A stretch of DNA of 64,000 bases from Chitinophagaceae bacterium 26-R-25. GTDB taxonomy: Bacteria; Bacteroidota; Bacteroidia; Chitinophagales; Chitinophagaceae. The notes below the pieces were generated by a model, which worked only from the letters and a program-made list of their open reading frames with translations, was not told where the DNA came from and ran no database searches. A program made the position numbers and the translations under genes. The stretch spans positions 1,426,001 through 1,490,000 of the forward strand of contig JARWSJ010000001.1 in the NCBI GenBank assembly GCA_029906195.1. The letters run 5' to 3'. Shown here one piece after another: positions 571 through 32,297 of this stretch (positions within the stretch are counted from its first letter, which is position 1; every line of letters begins with the position of its first letter).

Positions 571-3500
571 TTACAGGTTTACATTCAGTCCAAAACGAAT
601 GGTGCGGGTTTGAGGATATGAAACCCCTGTCAGGCTTGTATTTTCAGGATCAACTCCATATCTTTTCAATCCATCAACAGAGAAAATATTTGAGCCGCCT
701 ACAAATAATCTAAGCTGTGAAATGCTGATCCTTTTTAAAAAATCATTGTCAGTGAAAATATATGAAAGCTCTGCATTCTTCAATCGGAGGAAGGAAGCAT
801 CCCTTACATACAGGTCAGCATCTACGTTGTTTCTTGAATCGCCATTGTTGCTCGCTCTTGGAAATTTCGCATCAGGCGTTGCTTCTGTTGAAACAAACCT
901 GTCATCATACACCCACGTTGGCGGCACTACTACAGCACTTTGTGCCTGTGGACGTATCTGAACCTTAGCAATAGTCTGGCCCGCAAATATCATGTTAAGG
1001 CTCCATCCTTTATAGGTGAAAGACACCGGAAGACCGAACGATAGTCTTGGTTTCACGCCATAGTCAATACGCACTTTATCCTTCGATGTAATTTGTCCAT
1101 CATGATCGATATCCTGTATCCAAAGATCGCCAGGGCCTGCGCCGGGAAGGTGGGGGCTTTTCAATACTTCATCCTGTGTATGATAGATGCCACTTGTTTG
1201 ATAAGCCAGCCATGAGTCTACGGTGTGACCAGTATACTGCTGCCATGCAGGAATGTTGGGTGATTCGTCCTGGTAAATAACTTTGCTTTTCGCATAAGTA
1301 AGATTCACACCAACACTATATTGAAAGTCTCTGTTTGTTGCCTGTCTGTAGTTTATAGCAAACTCAAATCCACGATTCAACGACTTACCAATATTCATGA
1401 AGGGCAGGCTGAGCCCGGTGTATTGAGGCACTGACGACAGTGGTTGAGCCAATATATCACTGCGATAGTTTCTGAATACGTCGAATGTGATGTTCAGTTT
1501 GTTTTGCAGCAACGTCATGTCAACACCAAGGTTTCTGGTGTCTTGCTTTTCCCAGGTAATGTTAGGATTAGGAACTGAAGAAGGGGAGAGATTGGTAGAC
1601 TGCGTATAGGAATCCGAAAAGTAAGTATAGTAAGCTGGATTGGTAACAATTCCATACTTCGTCATGTAGTAATATTGCGCAACAGCATCACTACCCATGA
1701 TACCCCATGAAGCCCTGAGTTTAAGATTGTTGATAACAGGCAACAAAGGTTTGAAAAAGTTTTCATCCGAAATGCGCCAGCCAAGTGCCACCGCGGGAAA
1801 CAGGCCCCATTGTTTATCCGGCGCGAAATTGAATGAACCGTTGTATCGTAAAATTAAATTGGCTAAATATTTCCCCTTGTATGCATAATCGACTTTACCG
1901 AAATAACTGGCGCGGCCCCACTGCGATGCTGAGCCTGTGCCCAGTTGGTTAAGATCTGCGCCGGAAAACAATTGATCAAGCGAAGATCCCAAAAGGTCCT
2001 GGCGTTGAGCGGTAGTGCTGGTGTAGTTGTAGGTTGTTTGCTCATAAGCAGCAAATGCGCTAACGTTATGATCGCCAAACTGCCTGTCGTATCCAAGCTT
2101 TAGAAACAATGTGTTCTCAGCAGACTGTGAGCTGGTTTGCGTGATCTGGCTCAGTGCAGTGCTGCTGTATTGATCCGTGTAAGTATCTGTAGCCTTGTTG
2201 TAGGAATACGCGTGCCATGGTCTTTTATAAAATTTATTAAACGTGTTGATGTTGTCAAAAGCACCGTAACCACTTACTGAAAGACCTTTTGTAATGAATG
2301 GAAGTTGTATATCAATTCCCACTTTCGGGTTAAAGGTCAGGTAGTTGATGTTGTTGTAACCAGGTTCTGTAGAGCTCATCAGTACAGGGTTTCTACCATA
2401 ACCCAAGCCACCGGATGGCAATCCGTTTTTCCAGTACACAGGTATGAATGGATAAATGCTTATCATTTCATGCATGATGCTTCCATCATCGATCGCAGGA
2501 TTCTTCGAAGTCTCTTTCCATGCCGCAAGATCAACATTGAACTTGATGTATTTATTTGCCCTGATATCAATATTGGATCGCAGGTTGAAATTTTGGTAGG
2601 ACAGGTCACTATTGCTATAGTTACTTTTTTGATTGATGTATTGACCGGAAACATTGTAGCGCACATTGTCTGTACCGCCAGAAACAGATAAGGCGTGGCT
2701 CGTTTGCGGAGCCCATGCTTTATACACCTGGCCCGTCCAGTCCGTGCTCGTATAGTCAGGATCATTGCCGGCTTTGTATTTCTCTATTTCTTCAGGATCA
2801 TAAGGCGTTTGTGTTCCGTTGATAACAGCCAGCTCATTGTAATAAGTCATGTACTGCCATGCATTCACACGAGGAGCGATTCGTGTTAAATGCTGAAAAG
2901 CCATGTTACCGTCATACTGAATAACCGGCTTGCCCGATTTACCTCTTTTTGTCGTAACCAACACAACACCATTCGCGGCACGCACTCCGTAAATGGCTGC
3001 TGATGCGTCTTTCAGGAGTGTTATGCTTTCAACATCAGCAGGATTGATCCTGTTCATGTTTCTGTCAGGAATGCCGTCCACAACGATCAGCGGGCCAACG
3101 CCTGTTGAACCGTTCGCAAACGTGTTGTATCCACGAACCAACATCAATGCATCATCATAGCCTGGTTTACCGGAACGGTTGTTGATAACCAAACCGGGAG
3201 AAATACCTGCCAGCGCATTGGAAATTGAAGGAGAGGAGTTCATGCGAACATCTTCTGGTTTGATGGTCGTTACAGCTGCTGTTAAGCTCGCTTTCTTTTG
3301 TGTAGAATAACCCACCACTACAACTTCCTGCTGCTGTAAATCAGGCGACACCTGCATTACAATGGTTATGTTCGTTTTATTCTGCAGGCTTATTTCCTGT
3401 GTTTTATAACCTATGAATGAAATGACGAGGATTGCGTTTTGCGGATCTTTTACAGTCAAATCAAAATTTCCATCAGCATCAGTGGATGTGCCGATTGTTG

Positions 3501-3972
3501 TACCTTTTATGGCAATGGTTGCACCTGCCAGAGACTTGCCGGTTTCATCCGTTACGTGGCCCTTAATAATGCCAACTGGTGCGGACGATTCCGTTATTGC
3601 ACCGGGTAAAGTAACAAATGTGGAAGCAGACTTAATGATCACAGTTCTATCAACAATGGCATAACTGAGCGGCAGGTTTTTAAAGCATGCATTCAATGCT
3701 TCCTGAATGCTCACATTCTGAAGCGTAAGGGAAATGTTGCTCTGCTTCTGGATCATTTCGTAATTGTACAGAAAGTCAAAGCCACTTTGTTTTTGAATGA
3801 GGCCTATGGCCTTCAACAACGGAATGTTTTTTTCCTTTATGGTAATCTGGGAAAAAGTTTTAGCGTTCACAGAAAGAACACTCACAAGCAGCAAAGCAAT
3901 TGTTAATTTCATGGGCAATAACCATGTTAATTTTTGCCGTCTTTTTTGAAAGACATTGGCTAAAAAAGGCAT
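571..3972 (-). CDS. SusC/RagA-type TonB-dependent outer-membrane transporter with STN signalling domain
   Basis: This 1133-residue protein imports oligosaccharides through the outer membrane. A signal peptide (about residues 1-38, with a second possible start at Met21) is followed by an STN domain (about 42-95), a carboxypeptidase-D-like beta-sandwich (about 135-215, GHVTDETGKSLAGATI), a plug domain (about 215-330, with the SusC hallmark VVVGYSTQKK) and a beta-barrel. The STN domain is what contacts a FecR protein in FecA-type signalling, and a FecR and a sigma gene lie directly upstream on the same strand. Length is normal. A stem-loop leader precedes it at 4019-4059. The substrate is unknown. 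Confidence 0.95.
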   Translation of the reverse strand: MPFLANVFQKRRQKLTWLLPMKLTIALLLVSVLSVNAKTFSQITIKEKNIPLLKAIGLIQKQSGFDFLYNYEMIQKQSNISLTLQNVSIQEALNACFKNLPLSYAIVDRTVIIKSASTFVTLPGAITESSAPVGIIKGHVTDETGKSLAGATIAIKGTTIGTSTDADGNFDLTVKDPQNAILVISFIGYKTQEISLQNKTNITIVMQVSPDLQQQEVVVVGYSTQKKASLTAAVTTIKPEDVRMNSSPSISNALAGISPGLVINNRSGKPGYDDALMLVRGYNTFANGSTGVGPLIVVDGIPDRNMNRINPADVESITLLKDASAAIYGVRAANGVVLVTTKRGKSGKPVIQYDGNMAFQHLTRIAPRVNAWQYMTYYNELAVINGTQTPYDPEEIEKYKAGNDPDYTSTDWTGQVYKAWAPQTSHALSVSGGTDNVRYNVSGQYINQKSNYSNSDLSYQNFNLRSNIDIRANKYIKFNVDLAAWKETSKNPAIDDGSIMHEMISIYPFIPVYWKNGLPSGGLGYGRNPVLMSSTEPGYNNINYLTFNPKVGIDIQLPFITKGLSVSGYGAFDNINTFNKFYKRPWHAYSYNKATDTYTDQYSSTALSQITQTSSQSAENTLFLKLGYDRQFGDHNVSAFAAYEQTTYNYTSTTAQRQDLLGSSLDQLFSGADLNQLGTGSASQWGRASYFGKVDYAYKGKYLANLILRYNGSFNFAPDKQWGLFPAVALGWRISDENFFKPLLPVINNLKLRASWGIMGSDAVAQYYYMTKYGIVTNPAYYTYFSDSYTQSTNLSPSSVPNPNITWEKQDTRNLGVDMTLLQNKLNITFDVFRNYRSDILAQPLSSVPQYTGLSLPFMNIGKSLNRGFEFAINYRQATNRDFQYSVGVNLTYAKSKVIYQDESPNIPAWQQYTGHTVDSWLAYQTSGIYHTQDEVLKSPHLPGAGPGDLWIQDIDHDGQITSKDKVRIDYGVKPRLSFGLPVSFTYKGWSLNMIFAGQTIAKVQIRPQAQSAVVVPPTWVYDDRFVSTEATPDAKFPRASNNGDSRNNVDADLYVRDASFLRLKNAELSYIFTDNDFLKRISISQLRLFVGGSNIFSVDGLKRYGVDPENTSLTGVSYPQTRTIRFGLNVNL

Positions 3973-4018
3973 ACATTTACTTTTTAGGTTAAATAATGAG
4001 AACTCTATCAGACTTTAT

Positions 4019-4059
4019 GTTTAGCCTAATTCCGCCGGGAGTAGTACCAGTACTTCCGG
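4019..4059 (-). promoter_or_regulatory. Stem-loop leader upstream of susC (copy 1)
   Basis: On the minus strand TAAAAACCGG opens a 9-bp stem (4051-4059 with 4035-4043, one A-C mismatch) with a 7-base loop, followed by CGGCGGAA and CTAAAC. The last base lies 46 bases before the susC ATG. A matching element with the same stem, mismatch, loop size and downstream words precedes the second susC at 28813-28857. No known riboswitch or leader is recognised; the role is inferred to be regulatory because of the conserved place and structure. Confidence 0.6.
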
Positions 4060-4079
4060 TTTTTACTTGGCAGAAGTCA

Positions 4080-5282
4080 CTACTTGTTTTTTAGTTGCGC
4101 AACCAGTTTTTTTCCTTCAATTTTAAATGAATAAGTTCCGGTCATTTCCAGCAGGGAAACTATTTTAGAAAGAGGAAAGTCTCTTGAAACTGATCCTCCG
4201 ATATGCCCTTCAATCTCGCTGCCTTTATACACGACGTCAACATCATACCATCTCGCAACTTGCCGCAGCACACTACTGATCTCTGTCGCTTCACCGAAAT
4301 CAAACTTGTTGTTCTTCCAGGCTATAACAGCGGCTGCATCTACATTCTCCGTTACGGTCATTTTAGAGGAAATAGACGCCTGATCATTCGGCTTTAACAG
4401 GCAGGAGGGTTGCCCGGCTTTATCAACTCTTACCGATCCTTCGAGCAACGTTATTCTACTTTGAGGTTCATCATCATAAGTGTTCATGTTGAAACTCGTT
4501 CCCAACACAGACACTGTAATGTTATTGCTGGTAACTTTGAAAGGCTTTGCCTTATTTTGTGCCACTTCAAAATACACTTCGCCAGTTGTTTCAACTTGCC
4601 TGTCGTGACCAACAAAAGAAACCGGAAACTTTAAAGAAGACGCAGCATTGAGCCAGACTTTTGTTCCGTCTGAAAGTGTTAAGCTGAGAATTTTACTTCC
4701 CCGGGGAACCGCTACTGTATTGTATTGCAGGCGATCATTTCCACTTTCTTCATTATAGGCGATTGATCCGTTTGCGAGTTTTTGAATGTTGGTATTTCCC
4801 TGTGCCGCAATTTTTCCACTTTGTGCGCTGTCCAAAACAATCTTCGAACCATCGGCCAGGGTAAGTGTGGCATTGCTAACGGAAGGCGCAGCAACATCAG
4901 GTTGCTTTACTGCATAGGATGAAGTGGTATTGCTTTTATATTTAACAAGCCAAGCAGCGGCACCACCGAGGAACAGTAAGAAAATGGCGGCGGCTCCGAA
5001 CCAGTATTTTTTATAGGATCTGATGGTTCTTACAGGAGCAGCAGAAGGAGTCTCATTAATAGAGTGAATGATAGAGTTGAAAATTTCATCTGATTCCGAA
5101 GGGCTCCCGCTATCCTGCAATGCATTGTACTGGTGTATTTGCAGGTTAATCATTTCTTGTATAACGGGTCGGAACTCATCATCCTGCACGTACTGAAAGA
5201 ATTGTAGCTTTTCGTCTTCTGTGCAGCTATTGTTCACATACCTGTCAAACAGTTGTTGTAATTCGGCAAGGCGATCGTTCAT
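4080..5282 (-). CDS. FecR-family anti-sigma factor / sigma regulator
   Basis: A 400-residue inner-membrane protein. The N-terminal cytoplasmic part (about 1-85) is followed by one transmembrane helix (about 90-110, FGAAAIFLLFLGGAAAWL), a periplasmic FecR domain (about 180-280, with VPRGSKILSLTLSDGTKVWL and TGEVYFEVA) and a C-terminal DUF4974 (about 325-395). It should hold the neighbouring ECF sigma factor and receive a signal from the STN domain of the SusC protein. It lies between the two in the usual order sigma, FecR, SusC, SusD. Confidence 0.95.
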   Translation of the reverse strand: MNDRLAELQQLFDRYVNNSCTEDEKLQFFQYVQDDEFRPVIQEMINLQIHQYNALQDSGSPSESDEIFNSIIHSINETPSAAPVRTIRSYKKYWFGAAAIFLLFLGGAAAWLVKYKSNTTSSYAVKQPDVAAPSVSNATLTLADGSKIVLDSAQSGKIAAQGNTNIQKLANGSIAYNEESGNDRLQYNTVAVPRGSKILSLTLSDGTKVWLNAASSLKFPVSFVGHDRQVETTGEVYFEVAQNKAKPFKVTSNNITVSVLGTSFNMNTYDDEPQSRITLLEGSVRVDKAGQPSCLLKPNDQASISSKMTVTENVDAAAVIAWKNNKFDFGEATEISSVLRQVARWYDVDVVYKGSEIEGHIGGSVSRDFPLSKIVSLLEMTGTYSFKIEGKKLVAQLKNK

Positions 5283-5359: not shown

Positions 5360-5968
5360 TTAAAATAAATTTACAAGCGTGCAGAGGAGCACAATATGTC
5401 CGTGCGAGATAAGATAACTCTTAACCGACCTGGATGCCCTGACGATGTGTTTCTTCACTGTTTCTTTTGAAATGTGAAGCAGGTCGGCAATTTCATGATA
5501 CTTTAATCCTTCGAACCGGCTCAGTTCAAATACTCTTTTTTGCTGGGGAGGTAAATGCTCCAGCGCCTGTGCGATCGTATTCTGCAAATCCTTTCCCAGC
5601 ACAATGTTCAAGGTATTCTCATCTTCTGATTCCACGTCATCGCCGATGGCATTCTCCATCAGGCCAAGGAAAGCATGCTTCTTCAAATGATCATACATGC
5701 AATTTCTTACAAGTGCATTAAAATAAGCGTCAAAGTTTTCGATGTCAGGTAATTTGCTTCTGTTTATCCAGAGTTTGATAAAAACCTCTTGCAGCGCGTC
5801 AATGGCATAGGTTTCTTCCTTTAAAATCTTCTTGGCGATAAACAATACTTTGCGGTGATATTGATCAAAAAGGAGCTTGAACGCCGATTCATCAGCGTTG
5901 GCTATTTTCCCAAGAAGCAGTTTTACTTCGTCATCCAGTAAATCACGGTTCAGACTTCGCACAAGCAA
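5360..5968 (-). CDS. ECF RNA polymerase sigma factor (PUL1)
   Basis: About 200 residues with sigma region 2 (about 33-98, ALQEVFIKLWINR) and region 4 (about 135-185, LPPQQKRVFELSRFEGLKYHE, helix-turn-helix ISKETVKKHI). It belongs to the Bacteroidota FecI-like group that drives SusC/SusD operons. The frame has no ATG near its beginning: it can start at TTG 5968 or at GTG 5962, so the exact N-terminus is uncertain. It is followed 77 bases later by its FecR partner and diverges from the GH31 gene. Confidence 0.93.
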   Translation of the reverse strand: MLVRSLNRDLLDDEVKLLLGKIANADESAFKLLFDQYHRKVLFIAKKILKEETYAIDALQEVFIKLWINRSKLPDIENFDAYFNALVRNCMYDHLKKHAFLGLMENAIGDDVESEDENTLNIVLGKDLQNTIAQALEHLPPQQKRVFELSRFEGLKYHEIADLLHISKETVKKHIVRASRSVKSYLISHGHIVLLCTLVNLF

Positions 5969-26139: not shown

Positions 26140-26727
26140 AAGATAAAAAATTGACTAAATGAAAAACGTAGGCGATGGAGAAGCGGTACACTCGCTTCAA
26201 ACAATAAGAAATGTAAAAATTATTGGCTGATACCATGCGCTTTCGTTTCAGTAATAAGCGATGGTCATTGTTACTGGGAAGAAATATTGAGAAACGAAAA
26301 TAGCAGTTTTATAAATGCTTCAAAAAAAATTATTTGCCGTGCGCTTTTTGTTTCGGAAGTTGTAAATGGAATTACTTCATCTTTAAAACACGCGATGACC
26401 ATTTTAACGCAACACTAAACGAAGCAATTTTAAGCAGTATTTCAGTACCACAATGCAAAGTCATTTATATAAGAAAACCATCCGACATTTCATCTCATCA
26501 ACGAGTCCTCGCTAACTGAACGATATTGATGCGGATATGCAATACTTAATGTCGTGACACTTAATTTACGGAGCAAGCTTTTGATTTACGCAAACGTTTG
26601 AGTAAAATTCTTTGCGGTGAAACCATTACATTTATCGGTCGAAATTACATTTGATAGAGCATGGTGTAGTTGGCTCAAGTCATTTGTGACAATGTTGCAC
26701 CACTATTTTTTAGCCAAAACGATTTGC
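26140..26727. other. Divergent regulatory region between tssD and the PUL2 sigma gene
   Basis: No gene is supported in these 588 bases. They contain the operator candidate at 26586-26605. A sequence like the Bacteroidota promoter (TTTG at 26683-26686 and TATTTTTT at 26704-26711, 17 bases apart) lies just before the sigma gene, but its -7 box ends in TTTT rather than TTTG. Confidence 0.45.
26586..26605. promoter_or_regulatory. Palindromic operator candidate (site 2)
   Basis: The perfect core CAAACGTTTG (26591-26600) is extended to TTACG-core-AGTAA, a 20-base palindrome with one mismatched pair. It lies about 125 bases before the sigma factor ATG. It shares its core with sites at 6116 and 36600. 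Confidence 0.6.
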
Positions 26728-27312
26728 ATGTCTAATGAGCTTTTTATTGACGAAAAAGAGCTGCTAACTCGCATAGCCGCAGGAGATGAAGATGCATTCA
26801 GGCAATTATTTCATGCTCATTATAACAAGCTGGTTTCATTTGTACAGAAACTCACTAAATCACACAGCGCTACAGAGGAACTTGTACAGGATGTGTTTGT
26901 AAAGGTTTGGTTGAACCGCTCCGAACTGACTTCCATTACTAAATTCGAATCGTGGATGTATGTTATTGCACGTAACCATGTTTTTAATCATCTCAAAAAA
27001 ACGGCTCGTGAGTTCCAGCAACAACAAGTCTGGTTGGAGCTGGTGGCGGCTGAAAATTTAGAAACTCCCGGCCACAGCGATGCAGTAGACATGTATTCCT
27101 TTATAGAAAACTCAATTGAAAAATTGCCACCACAGCAAAAAAAGATATACTTACTAAAGCGCCAAAACGGCCTTAGGAACGAGGAGATAGCCCAACAGCT
27201 AAACATTTCGATGGAGACCGTGAAAAAACATTTCACCCTCGCACTGCGTTTTATTAAAGATCATGCACGGCACGGTATTGAAGTGCTTATTGTGTTTTCT
27301 TTGCTTTTTTAA
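26728..27312 (+). CDS. ECF RNA polymerase sigma factor (PUL2)
   Basis: The ATG at 26728 gives 194 residues of normal size; 37 further codons upstream are open but unlike the family. Region 2 (about 25-90, ATEELVQDVFVKVWLNR) and region 4 (about 125-175, LPPQQKKIYLLKRQNGLRNEE, HTH ISMETVKKHF) are clear. It should transcribe the SusC/SusD operon that follows, held by the FecR protein encoded next. Operator site 2 lies upstream. Confidence 0.94.
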   Translation: MSNELFIDEKELLTRIAAGDEDAFRQLFHAHYNKLVSFVQKLTKSHSATEELVQDVFVKVWLNRSELTSITKFESWMYVIARNHVFNHLKKTAREFQQQQVWLELVAAENLETPGHSDAVDMYSFIENSIEKLPPQQKKIYLLKRQNGLRNEEIAQQLNISMETVKKHFTLALRFIKDHARHGIEVLIVFSLLF

Positions 27313-27503: not shown

Positions 27504-28664
27504 ATGCCCGACGTACGATTGCAATACTTGCTTGAAATTTATTTTAAAGGAACTGCCTCCAACCAGGAAACGATGGAACTCATGCGCATACTGGAAAAAG
27601 AGGAATCAAATGAAGAGCTTCAGTCTTTACTGGACAGCATGTGGAGTCGTTTTGCAGCAACAAGTGAAGCATGGTCGGAAGAAAAAAAAGAAGAACAATT
27701 TGATGAAGTTTTACAAAAAATAAAAAGTCAGCAGGCTCCTGTAAAACGAATGAAAACGTGGTATAGAATAGCCGCCGCGGCAGTGGTAGGGGGCATTGTA
27801 GCAACTACTGCTTTTTTTTACACAACTCATCGTACCACTGTTCAGCAACCCGCAATTGTTGCCGCAAACAAAATAGTAAATGATATCCCACCGGGAAAAG
27901 ACAAAGCAATCTTAACGCTACAGGATGGAAAGAAGGTAGACCTTGATAGCCTGCAAAAGAACAATGCAGGCATGTACGGTTTCCAAAAAAAGAACGATCA
28001 TGAAATTGCGTTTAACAACACTTCCACACAAACGATTACTTACAACACACTTTCTACGCCCAAAGGGGGAAAATATAAACTGATGCTTCCCGACGGAAGC
28101 ATGGTATGGCTCAACGCGGCCTCTACATTACGCTTTCCTACTGCATTCCAGGGCAACACAAGAGAAGTCACCCTAACAGGCGAAGCATATTTTGAAATAG
28201 CACAGAATGCCAAACAACCTTTTCACGTAAAAGTGAGCGATATGGATGTGCAGGTATTGGGTACCAACTTCAATGTGATGGGTTACGACGATGAAAGCAC
28301 CGTTAACACTACACTTTTACAGGGTTCGGTAAAAGTTTCACAGGGAAACCGTTCAGGCATTTTAAAACCCGGTCAGTTATCTGCAGTAGACAGAGATGGA
28401 GGGTTAAAGGTCAGCGAAGCAGATATTGAAGAAACAATGGCATGGAAGAATGATCTGTTTGTATTTAAGTCATATGATTTTAAAAAAATCATGCGGCAGG
28501 TGGGACGCTGGTACAATGTGACCGTAGTCTACAAAAGCAAAATACCTGAAGGGAAATACTCTGGCATCATTGGCAGAAACAATAACATTTCACAGGTGCT
28601 GAACATATTGAAGGCATCAGGGCTTTCCTTTAAAATCGACGACAATTCTATTATTGTTGAGTAG
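27504..28664 (+). CDS. FecR-family anti-sigma factor (PUL2)
   Basis: The 386-residue protein has a cytoplasmic N-terminal helical part (about 1-75), one transmembrane helix (about 83-105, IAAAAVVGGIVATTAFFY), a periplasmic FecR domain (about 175-270, TPKGGKYKLMLPDGSMVWLN and LTGEAYFEIA) and a DUF4974 C-terminus (about 315-385). It follows the sigma gene after 191 bases and precedes SusC, in the usual order. Confidence 0.95.
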   Translation: MPDVRLQYLLEIYFKGTASNQETMELMRILEKEESNEELQSLLDSMWSRFAATSEAWSEEKKEEQFDEVLQKIKSQQAPVKRMKTWYRIAAAAVVGGIVATTAFFYTTHRTTVQQPAIVAANKIVNDIPPGKDKAILTLQDGKKVDLDSLQKNNAGMYGFQKKNDHEIAFNNTSTQTITYNTLSTPKGGKYKLMLPDGSMVWLNAASTLRFPTAFQGNTREVTLTGEAYFEIAQNAKQPFHVKVSDMDVQVLGTNFNVMGYDDESTVNTTLLQGSVKVSQGNRSGILKPGQLSAVDRDGGLKVSEADIEETMAWKNDLFVFKSYDFKKIMRQVGRWYNVTVVYKSKIPEGKYSGIIGRNNNISQVLNILKASGLSFKIDDNSIIVE

Positions 28665-28741: not shown

Positions 28742-28812
28742 AACCAAAACCAAAGCTTGCAATATGAAAATGAGAAAAACGTAAGCCTCAAAAAAATAGT
28801 TCAAAATAAAAA

Positions 28813-28857
28813 CCGGGAAACGGTTGCGACGTTCCCCGGCAGAAGTTTGAACTAAAC
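28813..28857 (+). promoter_or_regulatory. Stem-loop leader upstream of susC (copy 2)
   Basis: TAAAAACCGG opens a 10-bp stem (28813-28822 with 28830-28839, one A-C mismatch) and a 7-base loop, followed by CGGCAGAAGTT and CTAAAC. The element ends 50 bases before the susC ATG. It matches copy 1 at 4019-4059 in order, structure and spacing. Confidence 0.6.
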
Positions 28858-28907
28858 CGCACAACACGATCAGTATTGTAATTGTCTCATCCAAACATCT
28901 CAAAAGT

Positions 28908-31900
28908 ATGGAAAATTTTTCCAGTAAAACGAATGCCTGTACGAGCAGGCAAAACCTAACGAAACTATTGCTTATTATGAAGGCTACTATTATTTTGGTA
29001 GTGGTTGCATGTCTTCATGCAAGTGCCGGCACGATGGCACAAAAAATTACTTTATCTGGCAAAAATATGTTGCTGGACAATGTTTTTAAAGAAATTCATG
29101 AGCAAACCGGCTACCAGTTTTTTTATCGTGAGGATTTGATGAAGCAGGCACCGTCTGTAAACATCGATGTAAAGAATGCTTCGATAGACGAAACACTAAA
29201 ACAGTGTTTAGCGGGCTTGCCTGTAACCTATTCCATTGTAGAGAAAACGATCGTTATAAAACCTGCAACACCGGCATCACCAGTGGAGATACCGTTACCT
29301 CCACCGCCTGTTGATGTAGAAGGAACCATTGTTGACGAATCAGGCAAGCCTGTCGCCAACGCAAGCATTGTTGTAAAAGGCACCACCTTTGGTGTTACAT
29401 CCGATGCAGATGGTAAGTTCCAGTTGAAAAACAGCCAGGAGTCTGTTTCCCTTGTCATCACCTGTGTTGGTTACCAGCGCCAGGAGATTACGGTGAAGGG
29501 GCATAAAACTATTGCCATTAAATTAAAACCACTGGAGACAGCCCTGGAAGAAATGGTGATCGTTGGTTATGGTACGCAGAAAAAAACAACGTTAACCGGA
29601 TCTGTTTCCGTTGCCACAGCAAAAGATTTTACCGACCGCCCTGTTACAAACCTCTCAAGCGCGCTACAGGGAAAGCTTTCAGGCGTTACTGTGACAACGA
29701 CTAATGGCCAGCCAGGGAGAGATACTGGTGCCATTAACGTAAGAGGCATAGGAACCGGCCTCGGTGGTTCACCTGCAATATCCAGCCCTATGGTAGTGGT
29801 AGACGGCATTGTGGCTTCCTTAGGTGAAGTAAACCCTAACGACATTGAAAGTGTTACCGTTCTTAAAGATGCATCATCCGCAGCTATCTACGGAGCAAGG
29901 GCTTCAAACGGTGTAATCCTTGTTACAACAAAAAGAGGGAAGAAAGGAACATTGCATATAAGCTACGATGGTTATTTCGGCGTGCAATCGATTATAAGAA
30001 AACCGGATTTTCTTCCTTCCTACCAACAGGCGCAATTGTTCAACGAAGCACTAACGAATGAAGGTGCTCCCAAAAAATGGACGGACGACGACATCAGGCT
30101 GTTTCAGGATGGAAGCGATAAAACTGGGGCGCATCCAAACACTGATTGGTTGGCACTTGCTTACTCGCAAAAGGCTTATCAATCCAGCAACAACATTAGC
30201 CTTAGCGGCGGCGATGAGAAAACGAGATACATGTTTTCTGTTGGTTATTTTGATCAAAAAGGAAACGTTGTAAAAACGGAGTATGAGAGATACAACATGC
30301 GTTTCAACTTGAATTCGCAGATATATAAAAAGCTTGGCTTCAATTCAAGCGTTGCTTATCAGTATGCGCCGTTTAGTGAGCCGGTGAGCACTTACGCAAC
30401 AAGCTTTTCACAAATCATCAGGCAGGTCAACCGCGTTTCCAACACCGTTCCGTACAAATGGGAGAATGGAGCTTATGGTTATGTTTCTGATGGCTCGCCC
30501 ATGGCATGGCTCGAATCACCTTCTATTAACAAAACACAGAGCTACACTTTCACCGGCAATATTGGCCTTGACTATGCACCGGTTACGGGTCTGCACCTGA
30601 AGCCAACATTTGGGTACAGATTGGCAACAGGTCAGCAACAACAATATGTAGCGGATATCCAATATTACAAAGGCGGCCCTGCCGGCACTCCTTTGACGCC
30701 AACAAAATACCAGGGGCCAAGCAACTTAACCAACGCTGCAAACAGAACTACATACACTTTGTTGCAAATGCTTGCAGAATATGAAAAAGCACTGGGTCGA
30801 CATCACTTCAGATTGCTGGCCGGCGCATCACAGGAATATTCTAAATACAATTACTTCTCTGCTTATCGCCAGGGTTTCCTGAACAATTCCATTACTGAAA
30901 TCAATGCGGCACCGGCAGATGGCCAGGCTGCGCAAGGTTATGCAAACGACTGGGCATTGCAATCTGTTTTCGGAAGATTGACTTATGACTGGGCCGATAA
31001 ATATTTATTTGAAGCCAACATTAGATATGACGGTTCCTCCCGTTTCGCTCCCGGCAAACGCTGGGGTAGTTTCCCGTCATTCTCTGCAGGATGGGTGATC
31101 TCGAAAGAATCATTCTTCGACAATTTGAAGAGTTCTGTTAACCTGTTAAAACTGAGAGCTTCATGGGGTAGATTAGGCAATCAGCAAATTTCAAATTATC
31201 CGGCGATCGCTGTTGTTCGTACCGGCCAGCCGTATTCCTTCAACCAAAGCCTCACGTCCGGCGTTGCACCTACAACCGATCCTGCCGTACCTGGCGCAAA
31301 TGCAGATATTCAATGGGAAAGCACTGAGACCTACGGAGCAGGCATCGACGCCGCATTCCTGAGAAACAGGCTGACATTCTCATTTGATTTGTTCAACAAG
31401 AACACTGATAACATTTTGATGCGGCTACCAATAGGTGCACCATATGCGTGGAGCACACCTTATCAAAACGCCGGAGCAATGACGAACAAAGGCTTTGAGG
31501 TGAACGTCGGTTATTCAGACCATGCAGGAAAACTAAACTACTCGGTTAATGGTAACGTGACTTACACAAAGAACACTGTGACTGATCTTAAAGGCGCTGG
31601 ACCATTCATTAACAATGGCACATTCTACAATGTGGGCTACCCATTCTATTCATTGTACGGCTACGAGGCGTTGGGCATTTACCAAACCAAAGATGACGTG
31701 AAAGGTACGGCAGTACTCAATTCAAAAGTTGGCCCCGGTGATTTGAAATACAAAGATCAAAACAATGATGGCGTGATCGATGCAAAAGACAGGGTATACC
31801 TGGGTACTTATTTTCCTAAATACACATTTGGTCTTACTGCTACAGCAGAGTACAAGGGCTTCCAGTTAAGCTTGTTCTTCCAGGGTGCAGCGGCTGTTAA

Positions 31901-32297
31901 AGCATTAGGCGGTAATTTAATAGGACAAATTGGTGGCGATGTTCAAAAACCAACAAGCGTATTCCTTGACAGATGGACACCAGACAATCACTCAACGACC
32001 TTTCCAAGAGCATGGTATAAATACACACAAAACGATCCATCCTCTAACCCTTCATCTTTTTGGGTGAAAGATGCGTCGTATGTCCGTTTGAAAAACATAC
32101 AGCTATCCTACACGTTGCCAAAAGCGTGGATAACAAAAGCTCATTTAAGCAATGTGAGGATTTTTTATAGTGGACAAAACGTGTTAACCTTCACAAAGTT
32201 CTACAAATGGATAGATCCTGAAATTGGCTCTACTGCCAGTATCAATGCATATCCGCAGGTGATGGTTAATTCAGTTGGTTTAAATGTTACATTCTAA
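28908..32297 (+). CDS. SusC/RagA-type TonB-dependent outer-membrane transporter with STN domain (PUL2)
   Basis: The 1129-residue protein has a long N-terminal signal region (hydrophobic core about 26-40, cut after TMAQ), an STN domain (about 47-98), a carboxypeptidase-D-like domain (about 115-200, GTIVDESGKPVANASIVVKG), a plug (about 200-320, with IVGYGTQKKTTLTGSV) and a barrel ending in the aromatic residue expected of outer-membrane proteins (NVTF). It imports glycan fragments and signals through FecR. SusD follows after 69 bases. Confidence 0.96.
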   Translation: MENFSSKTNACTSRQNLTKLLLIMKATIILVVVACLHASAGTMAQKITLSGKNMLLDNVFKEIHEQTGYQFFYREDLMKQAPSVNIDVKNASIDETLKQCLAGLPVTYSIVEKTIVIKPATPASPVEIPLPPPPVDVEGTIVDESGKPVANASIVVKGTTFGVTSDADGKFQLKNSQESVSLVITCVGYQRQEITVKGHKTIAIKLKPLETALEEMVIVGYGTQKKTTLTGSVSVATAKDFTDRPVTNLSSALQGKLSGVTVTTTNGQPGRDTGAINVRGIGTGLGGSPAISSPMVVVDGIVASLGEVNPNDIESVTVLKDASSAAIYGARASNGVILVTTKRGKKGTLHISYDGYFGVQSIIRKPDFLPSYQQAQLFNEALTNEGAPKKWTDDDIRLFQDGSDKTGAHPNTDWLALAYSQKAYQSSNNISLSGGDEKTRYMFSVGYFDQKGNVVKTEYERYNMRFNLNSQIYKKLGFNSSVAYQYAPFSEPVSTYATSFSQIIRQVNRVSNTVPYKWENGAYGYVSDGSPMAWLESPSINKTQSYTFTGNIGLDYAPVTGLHLKPTFGYRLATGQQQQYVADIQYYKGGPAGTPLTPTKYQGPSNLTNAANRTTYTLLQMLAEYEKALGRHHFRLLAGASQEYSKYNYFSAYRQGFLNNSITEINAAPADGQAAQGYANDWALQSVFGRLTYDWADKYLFEANIRYDGSSRFAPGKRWGSFPSFSAGWVISKESFFDNLKSSVNLLKLRASWGRLGNQQISNYPAIAVVRTGQPYSFNQSLTSGVAPTTDPAVPGANADIQWESTETYGAGIDAAFLRNRLTFSFDLFNKNTDNILMRLPIGAPYAWSTPYQNAGAMTNKGFEVNVGYSDHAGKLNYSVNGNVTYTKNTVTDLKGAGPFINNGTFYNVGYPFYSLYGYEALGIYQTKDDVKGTAVLNSKVGPGDLKYKDQNNDGVIDAKDRVYLGTYFPKYTFGLTATAEYKGFQLSLFFQGAAAVKALGGNLIGQIGGDVQKPTSVFLDRWTPDNHSTTFPRAWYKYTQNDPSSNPSSFWVKDASYVRLKNIQLSYTLPKAWITKAHLSNVRIFYSGQNVLTFTKFYKWIDPEIGSTASINAYPQVMVNSVGLNVTF

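Follow-up and report, generated by a model that had tools for sequence, protein, structure and literature searches.

The window, by which we mean the whole 64-kb stretch of DNA that was analysed, contains two loci at which genes for an ECF sigma factor, a FecR-type anti-sigma factor and a SusC homologue follow one another; domain matches confirmed this order, as given in a preliminary description of the sequence, at both loci. The closest named relative of the second receptor belongs to Pinibacter aurantiacus (Chitinophagaceae) and is 91% identical. The preliminary description had also noticed that the two susC genes share an element upstream of their start codons, and had placed it as a stem-loop in the leader of the susC mRNA. 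Each of its parts was present at both genes, namely TAAAAACCGG, a 9-10 bp stem, a 7-base loop, CGGC(G/A)GAA and CTAAAC, and the stem bears a single A-C opposition at the matching place in both copies. The distances of 46 and 50 bases that were attached to the element are correct from ATG to CTAAAC, while the hairpin ends 61 and 67 nt from the ATG. A search for the pattern TAAAAACCGG-N8-28-CCGGCRGAA recovered these two copies alone from the window and nothing from 100 dinucleotide-shuffled sequences; when the pattern was relaxed slightly, the same two places were the only matches in the whole 6.5 Mb genome. We found no match to the element in Rfam at the gathering threshold; at E values up to 10 there were three chance-level matches near the copies, none of them to FopS, which the copy of Rfam used may or may not include. 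Features of the two loci are summarized in Table 1.

Table 1. Observed and predicted features of the two susC loci in the window
Feature	Position	Strand	Basis
Copy 1, element of the preliminary description	4019-4065	-	sequence
Copy 1, putative antisense -7 box TACATTTA, 1 mismatch to TAnnTTTG, T opposite A of susC ATG	3972..3979	+	sequence; R1 match starts at 3972
Copy 1, predicted antisense small RNA, ~82 nt	3984..4065	+	R1 match, fold
Copy 1, predicted 5' hairpin (P1) of the antisense RNA	3984..4029	+	fold; class covariation, matched versus swapped arms
Copy 1, predicted terminator hairpin, 10 pairs, loop 7, then T-run; hairpin of the preliminary description	4034..4060	+	sequence, fold, terminator scan
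susC homologue 1 (STN, CarbopepD_reg_2, Plug, beta-barrel), presumed cis target of copy 1	571..3972	-	domain matches
FecR-type anti-sigma factor (FecR + FecR_C) upstream of susC 1	4080..5282	-	domain matches
ECF sigma factor upstream of FecR 1	5360..5968	-	domain matches
Copy 2, element of the preliminary description	28807-28857	+	sequence
Copy 2, putative antisense -7 box TACTTTTG, exact, T opposite A of susC ATG	28901..28908	-	sequence
Copy 2, predicted antisense small RNA, ~91 nt	28806..28896	-	R1 match, fold
Copy 2, predicted 5' hairpin (P1)	28845..28896	-	fold; class evidence
Copy 2, predicted terminator hairpin, then T-run 28812-28808	28812..28840	-	sequence, fold
susC homologue 2 (STN, CarbopepD_reg_2, Plug), presumed cis target of copy 2	28908..32297	+	domain matches
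FecR-type anti-sigma factor (FecR + FecR_C) upstream of susC 2	27504..28664	+	domain matches
ECF sigma factor upstream of FecR 2	26617..27312	+	domain matches

Read on the sense strand of susC, the element has an A-run at its start and no T-run at its end. The opposite strand reads as a GC-rich hairpin followed by a T-run, and hence as an intrinsic terminator; a terminator scan placed the terminator of copy 1 on the + strand. Likewise, the A-C opposition shared by the two copies becomes a G.U pair if the RNA is that of the antisense strand. The predicted antisense RNAs folded at -26.5 kcal/mol for copy 1 and -35.5 kcal/mol for copy 2, with z-scores of -4.2 and -5.1, respectively, compared to -0.8 and -0.6 for the sense RNAs.

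We extended the analysis to other SusC genes. Of 157 SusC candidates in the own genome, 56 were scored and all 56 were used, and the 23 in which the first ATG and the SusC match lay at least 380 nt apart were taken as the STN-like class. The larger set adds 49 genes of the family (29 best-per-genome loci plus 20 hand-picked among the matches listed, in which the N-terminal part of family members shared 34-53% identity with the query), 74 genes of named genomes (21 STN and 53 not, from 80 loci of which 74 had a usable start) and, as a control, 29 start codons of the window that were hand-picked from its ORF list. The first ATG in each open frame served as the start codon, and a terminator was scored if it reached -12 kcal/mol or lower at 25-110 nt upstream of that ATG. 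By this measure, an antisense terminator was present in 71 of 93 STN SusC genes compared to 5 of 115 controls (Fisher p = 1.6e-29; this and the other p-values overstate independence because the genes are related by descent). It was found in 39 of 49 STN genes of the family sample, 14 of 21 of the named genomes and 18 of 23 of the own genome, where it lay 44-94 nt upstream of the ATG; only 3 of the 33 other SusC genes of that genome had one.

The terminator went together with FecR. A fecR gene lay upstream of all 81 terminator-bearing STN genes (the 71 above and 10 in Bacteroides) and indeed of all 93 STN genes, with or without a terminator, and the place of the terminator was always between fecR and susC. 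Conversely, among 86 non-STN genes, the 4 with FecR upstream lacked a terminator, and the 4 non-STN SusC genes with a terminator lacked FecR. Two of the own genome's non-STN genes, L045 and L054, possess a strong antisense hairpin with a U-run, and at L045 the box TATGTTTG lies one base off the start. The terminator went undetected in 22 of the 93 STN genes, all 22 with FecR upstream; at least 3 of these were missed because an upstream ATG had wrongly been taken as the start. Five of the own genome's STN-SusC genes (L018, L020, L023, L043 and L050) have FecR upstream and no detected terminator, and L018 and L020 keep the exact promoter box described below. For counts of promoters, strands, second helices and A-runs, six near-duplicates were dropped, which reduced the 93 genes to 87, of which 65 have a terminator. 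The A-run 5' of the stem on the sense strand is conserved in these 65 (A at -3 in 95%). Apart from it, no sense promoter motif upstream of the hairpin was conserved across the 65 genes, as expected if each ECF sigma factor has its own site. By eye, small ORFs were also seen ahead of some hairpins in leaders of the own genome.

We then compared the two strands using stems chosen by Watson-Crick pairs only, a procedure blind to G.U pairs and tails and thus neutral as to strand. Such stems were present in 70 of 87 STN leaders, and a stem score of at least 10 was reached in 51 of the 87 compared to a mean of 1.7 in dinucleotide shuffles. Oppositions that would be G.U pairs numbered 49 in the antisense RNA and 6 in the sense RNA (p = 1.8e-9), alongside 18 other mismatches, and a U-tail (at least 5 of 7) followed 62 of the 70 stems on the antisense strand and 0 of 70 on the sense strand. 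These counts replace an earlier one of 58:8, for which hairpins had been picked by antisense folding, a choice biased to the antisense strand. Leaders of non-STN SusC genes had a stem in 19 of 86 cases, with G.U oppositions at 3:3 and an antisense U-tail in 3. A sense attenuator or sense terminator was rejected, since a T-run 3' of the stem on the sense strand was found in 0 of 70. Similarly, membership in the class of cis-acting mRNA leaders or riboswitch-like elements was not supported, as neither the G.U bias nor the fold z-scores place the structure on the mRNA strand. Thus, the element of the preliminary description is real, but it was assigned to the wrong strand: G.U oppositions, U-tails and fold z-scores all point to an antisense RNA rather than to a structure of the susC mRNA leader.

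The start codon itself carries a promoter-like sequence on the antisense strand. A strict TAnnTTTG with its T opposite the A of the ATG was present in 53 of 93 STN genes compared to 0 of 115 controls (p = 2.8e-24, subject to the same relatedness); in the own genome this exact -7 box lay on the start codon of 9 of 23 STN-like genes and 0 of 33 other SusC genes. The box ended in four positions that were T in 97%, T in 98%, T in 77% and G in 74% of the 65 non-redundant genes with a terminator. A TTG preceded the box by 19 or 20 nt in 20 of the 65, compared to 0-2 for every other spacing between 14 and 27, and this -33 TTG falls further into the susC coding region. By eye, a -33 TTG at the canonical spacing of 19-20 nt is absent from both window copies. 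A scan of positions 3800-4200 for E. coli-type promoters returned nothing, the E. coli consensus being uninformative for Bacteroidota. Because a study of F. psychrophilum places the box at -12 to -5 (PMC9723704), the start of the RNA was predicted 5 nt after the box, where the base is G in 71%. Accordingly, a promoter of the Bacteroidota sigma-A type would start the predicted RNA ~12 nt ahead of the susC ATG. Its predicted length has a median of 93 nt (10-90% range 77-111, full range 55-132, n = 65); for copy 1, the 5' end was set by the box rule and the 3' end by the U-run.

An alignment of 34 antisense RNAs revealed the two arms of a second helix, P1: GUUUnGGUUAA, close to the 5' end, and UUAACCnAA, ahead of the terminator. 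CTAAAC is the complement of part of the P1 3' arm, so that the element first described is the terminator of the predicted antisense RNA together with the start of its other helix. To compare arms between genes, we used the 59 sequences that had a gap of at least 45 nt and no more than 2 box mismatches. Matched arms paired at -10.1 kcal/mol, compared to -7.16 (sd 0.31) when arms were swapped between genes. In 9 of 59 genes no other arm paired better than the gene's own, which ranked in the top five in 26 of 59 and had a median rank of 6, as would be expected if the arms are largely shared. The same arms taken as sense RNA gave a smaller difference, -6.50 matched versus -5.42 (sd 0.25) swapped. 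Likewise, the strand-neutral count for P1, made on the 42 of the 59 sequences that scored 6 or more, yielded 18 G.U oppositions for the antisense strand and 0 for the sense strand, with 18 other mismatches.

RNAalifold, applied to MAFFT alignments, recovered part of the terminator stem in one and nothing in another; we therefore defined the structure manually on the basis of the aligned arms, and shuffles and slid controls served to test it. Two alignments were drawn from 53 reference sequences, A1 with 34 that were hand-chosen for similar geometry and A2 with 49. With both helices set by hand in A1, 81.4% of cells were paired compared to 65.8% after shuffling, two-sided changes occupied 98 cells compared to 35 (sd 5.5), and the covariation score was 0.416 compared to 0.193 in shuffles and at most 0.180 in slid controls. 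The number of pairs with a two-sided change, 17, was modestly above shuffles (13.0; 7 of 500 reached 17), and single pairs were broken in up to 13 of 34 sequences. Since a hand-set structure leans to its source alignment, the alignment-free tests weigh more. Taken together, these comparisons demonstrate, at the level of sequence, a predicted RNA body of two covarying helices with a preference for G.U pairs of the antisense strand, followed by a U-run. The preliminary description had proposed a selected RNA structure with compensatory changes in the gap between fecR and susC. This part of it stood, and at many SusC loci: covariation and conservation were both found in the larger set, albeit on the opposite strand.

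A covariance model, R1, matched copy 1 at 3972-4067 (62.2 bits, E = 6.9e-10) and copy 2 at 28908-28806 (64.8 bits, E = 2.1e-10), both copies being part of its training set. In the own genome, R1 matched 17 times at E ≤ 1, and at every match a SusC-like ORF starts no more than 20 nt from the 5' end of the match. Within the family, matches at E ≤ 0.01 were found in 20 of 40 sampled genomes, own included, the richest having 40, 33, 21 and 17 copies; at most 97 candidates per genome were scored, and several of these genomes had also given training sequences. Across the phylum, the model matched in at least 13 of 148 genomes, own included, a lower bound owing to stricter filters. At E ≤ 0.05, it matched in 6 of 11 genomes chosen from outside the family sample (a Sphingobacterium, a Pedobacter, Parabacteroides gordonii, an Adhaeribacter, a Tannerellaceae MAG and B. 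faecis) and had no match in those of B. finegoldii, B. reticulotermitis, a Flavobacterium, Reichenbachiella and Arsenicibacter.

Of 71 matches from outside the training set that were fetched, 69 were examined (L244 and L281 were left out; L252-L255 are also in the own-genome analysis). An ORF matching the SusC N-terminal profile lay opposite 62 of the 69, and in 56 of 69 an ATG stood exactly opposite the first base of the model. The remaining 7 comprised 2 STN-SusC-like frames with in-frame stops, 2 places before ECF sigma genes, 1 before a gene for an alginate-export-like porin and 2 without an ORF of 150 aa at the place. The interrupted frames, L285 and L286 (relatives G021 and G003), have kept an R1-scoring antisense RNA opposite their start. 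The matches before ECF sigma genes (Sigma70_r2, r4_2) rather than susC, L319 in Pedobacter zeae and L323 in a Tannerellaceae MAG, were possibly left over after loss or movement of a receptor gene.

STN-SusC proteins often have an N-terminal extension that precedes an internal M(K/R) located at residues 13-50, the start of an ordinary-looking signal peptide; in the window, this extension covers 28908-28982 and 3972-3898, the first ~25 codons of both susC genes. The extension was present in 20 of 23 STN genes of the own genome, 41 of 48 of the family and 9 of 16 of the named genomes, and in 1 of 33 and 7 of 52 non-STN genes of the own and named genomes, respectively. The antisense -33 region falls inside it, and the frame from the ATG opposite the box is open to the end of the locus in 28 of 34 R1 matches. 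By eye, a ACTGCTTATT-like motif was seen in leaders of the own genome, such as those of L046, L048 and L057, and just before the internal M(K/R) codon; it resembles the start context of non-STN SusC genes. The start codon of the STN-SusC genes has perhaps moved upstream.

With high confidence, we interpret the element as the Rho-independent terminator of a predicted DonS-type cis-antisense small RNA, and it probably acts on susC. We propose that sigma-A polymerase, when free at the start codon, would make an RNA of ~75-110 nt from a promoter situated on the susC start codon, and that this RNA would be perfectly complementary to the susC 5' leader from about -12 to -100. While the cognate ECF sigma factor is held by FecR, the antisense RNA would pair with residual susC leader via its two stem-loops, leading to a block of translation or to faster decay of the susC RNA; promoter occlusion at the start codon may contribute. 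Upon release of the ECF sigma factor, sense transcription would outrun the antisense RNA, and a threshold for the receptor operon would thereby be set.

Three other explanations were weighed against this proposal. The one put forward in the preliminary description, a structured cis-regulatory leader of the susC mRNA that tunes translation or stability, draws on the fact that the hairpin can form in the mRNA with one mismatch and ends 61-67 nt before the ATG, that whole sense leaders of the two copies fold at -15.8 and -18.0 kcal/mol, and that P1 arms are better matched than swapped as sense RNA as well, if less so. It is nevertheless very improbable, given G.U biases of 49:6 and 18:0 in favor of the antisense strand and sense fold z-scores of only -0.8 and -0.6, and it leaves the conserved A-run 5' of the stem and the spacing of TTG and TAnnTTTG without an evident role. 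We also consider it unlikely that the hairpin is simply a strand insulator, which would stop stray antisense transcription coming from susC and so protect fecR and the sigma factor gene, its RNA being functionless. The very strong conservation of the U-run (A at -3 in 95% of 65) and the constant place between fecR and susC in the STN sets speak for such an insulator; a fixed dedicated promoter and a second covarying helix would be superfluous to it, and most non-STN SusC genes do without a terminator (3 of 33 in the own genome have one).

Somewhat less unlikely, although still doubtful, is a mechanism of mainly transcriptional interference, in which the antisense promoter on the start codon would block or collide with sense elongation and the RNA would be incidental. 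The exact overlap of the box with the ATG in 53 of 93 STN genes and the ATG opposite the first model base in 56 of 69 non-training matches are consistent with it, whereas the selection for RNA structure apparent from the A1 covariation and the P1 tests is not. Moreover, in B. faecis locus L303 the box and the ATG of the SusC ORF are separate, the box lying some 60 nt upstream, so that overlap of box and ATG is not universal, which counts against interference as well.

Returning to the cis-antisense RNA, its paralogues share their P1 arms (GUUUnGGUUAA / UUAACCnAAAC), so that each RNA could pair with other STN-susC leaders in trans. For the 18 RNAs of the own genome, cross-duplex energies, which ignore RNA self-structure, averaged -40.7, compared to -31.6 after those leaders had been shuffled and -30.0 with leaders of non-STN susC genes. 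A speculative and rather improbable extension is that the antisense RNAs form a genome-wide cross-silencing network that imposes a hierarchy on dozens of receptor operons, with the start-codon overlap as its switch; shared ancestry alone could cause the cross-pairing. If such a network were to exist, the overlap of promoter and start codon would make antisense initiation and susC expression mutually exclusive.

In Bacteroides, antisense RNAs of PULs have been annotated and in part validated. The consensus (promoter rule, two helices and terminator) and the covariance model allow such predicted RNAs to be recognised from sequence alone. Their predicted members have no match in Rfam and form a new, widely spread set within a type of regulator that is already known. 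These findings suggest that the ECF sigma-FecR-SusC signalling unit includes RNA silencing as an integral component, and they make testable which glycan receptors are held off, and how. A literature search (SusC, antisense RNA, Chitinophaga) found no report of such RNAs, and within the literature searched we know of none of susC antisense RNAs for Chitinophagaceae and the other families considered here.

Among known systems, plasmid antisense RNAs of the RNAI/CopA type are short, form stem-loops and are complementary to a leader. The RNAs predicted here would share these traits and differ from them in being chromosomal, in having many paralogues and in being tied to a sigma/anti-sigma receptor system. 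FopS and GibS, which act with RbpB, are described in PMC11697453 as multicopy trans-acting sRNAs that repress susC mRNAs near the start codon; FopS, in the same text, has a sigma-ABfr promoter, a terminator hairpin and a single-stranded 5' seed, and acts in trans. The likeness lies in a multicopy RNA with a susC target near the start codon, a sigma-A type promoter and a terminator hairpin. In contrast to FopS, the RNAs predicted here would have a paired 5' end, in P1, and each is encoded opposite the gene that it presumably targets.

DonS and other cis-antisense RNAs associated with PULs in Bacteroides were reportedly described by Cao et al. in 2016 in the Journal of Bacteriology (198:2410). 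In 28 STN and 22 non-STN genes of B. faecis and B. finegoldii, taken among the matches listed, an antisense terminator was present in 10 of 28 and the exact box in 5 of 28 STN-SusC genes, compared to 0 of 22 and 1 of 22 non-STN genes. R1 matched 2 of the 28 STN loci at E < 0.001, L171 (one of the 10) and L201 (where the hairpin is further upstream); with whole genomes at E ≤ 0.05, there was 1 match in B. faecis and 0 in B. finegoldii. These terminators and matches may link the elements of the window to DonS-type antisense RNAs. DonS-type RNAs are 78-128 nt long, cis-antisense to susC and negative for susC expression (PMC7366714), DonS represses susC (PMC11697453, PMC7366714, PMC10994844), and 32 PUL-associated antisense RNAs are annotated in B. 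thetaiotaomicron (PMC10994844).

By analogy, DonS-type cis-antisense RNA of Bacteroides is the nearest known kind. The predicted RNAs are likewise encoded antisense to the 5' region of susC (71 of 93 genes versus 5 of 115 controls; 62 of 69 R1 matches), their predicted median length of 93 nt and the ~82 and ~91 nt of the window copies fall within the DonS-type range, and control of the PUL by an ECF sigma and anti-sigma pair, the trait that defines the DonS family, has its counterpart in the gene context, with FecR at 81 of 81 terminator-bearing STN genes and both sigma factor and FecR at the two window loci. They differ in their hosts, which here include Chitinophagaceae, Sphingobacterium, Mucilaginibacter and Pedobacter, among others, and they are likened to DonS by description. 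What the predicted family would add to the DonS type is a usual promoter position, a two-hairpin structure and a linkage to FecR and STN-SusC, all of them recurrent.
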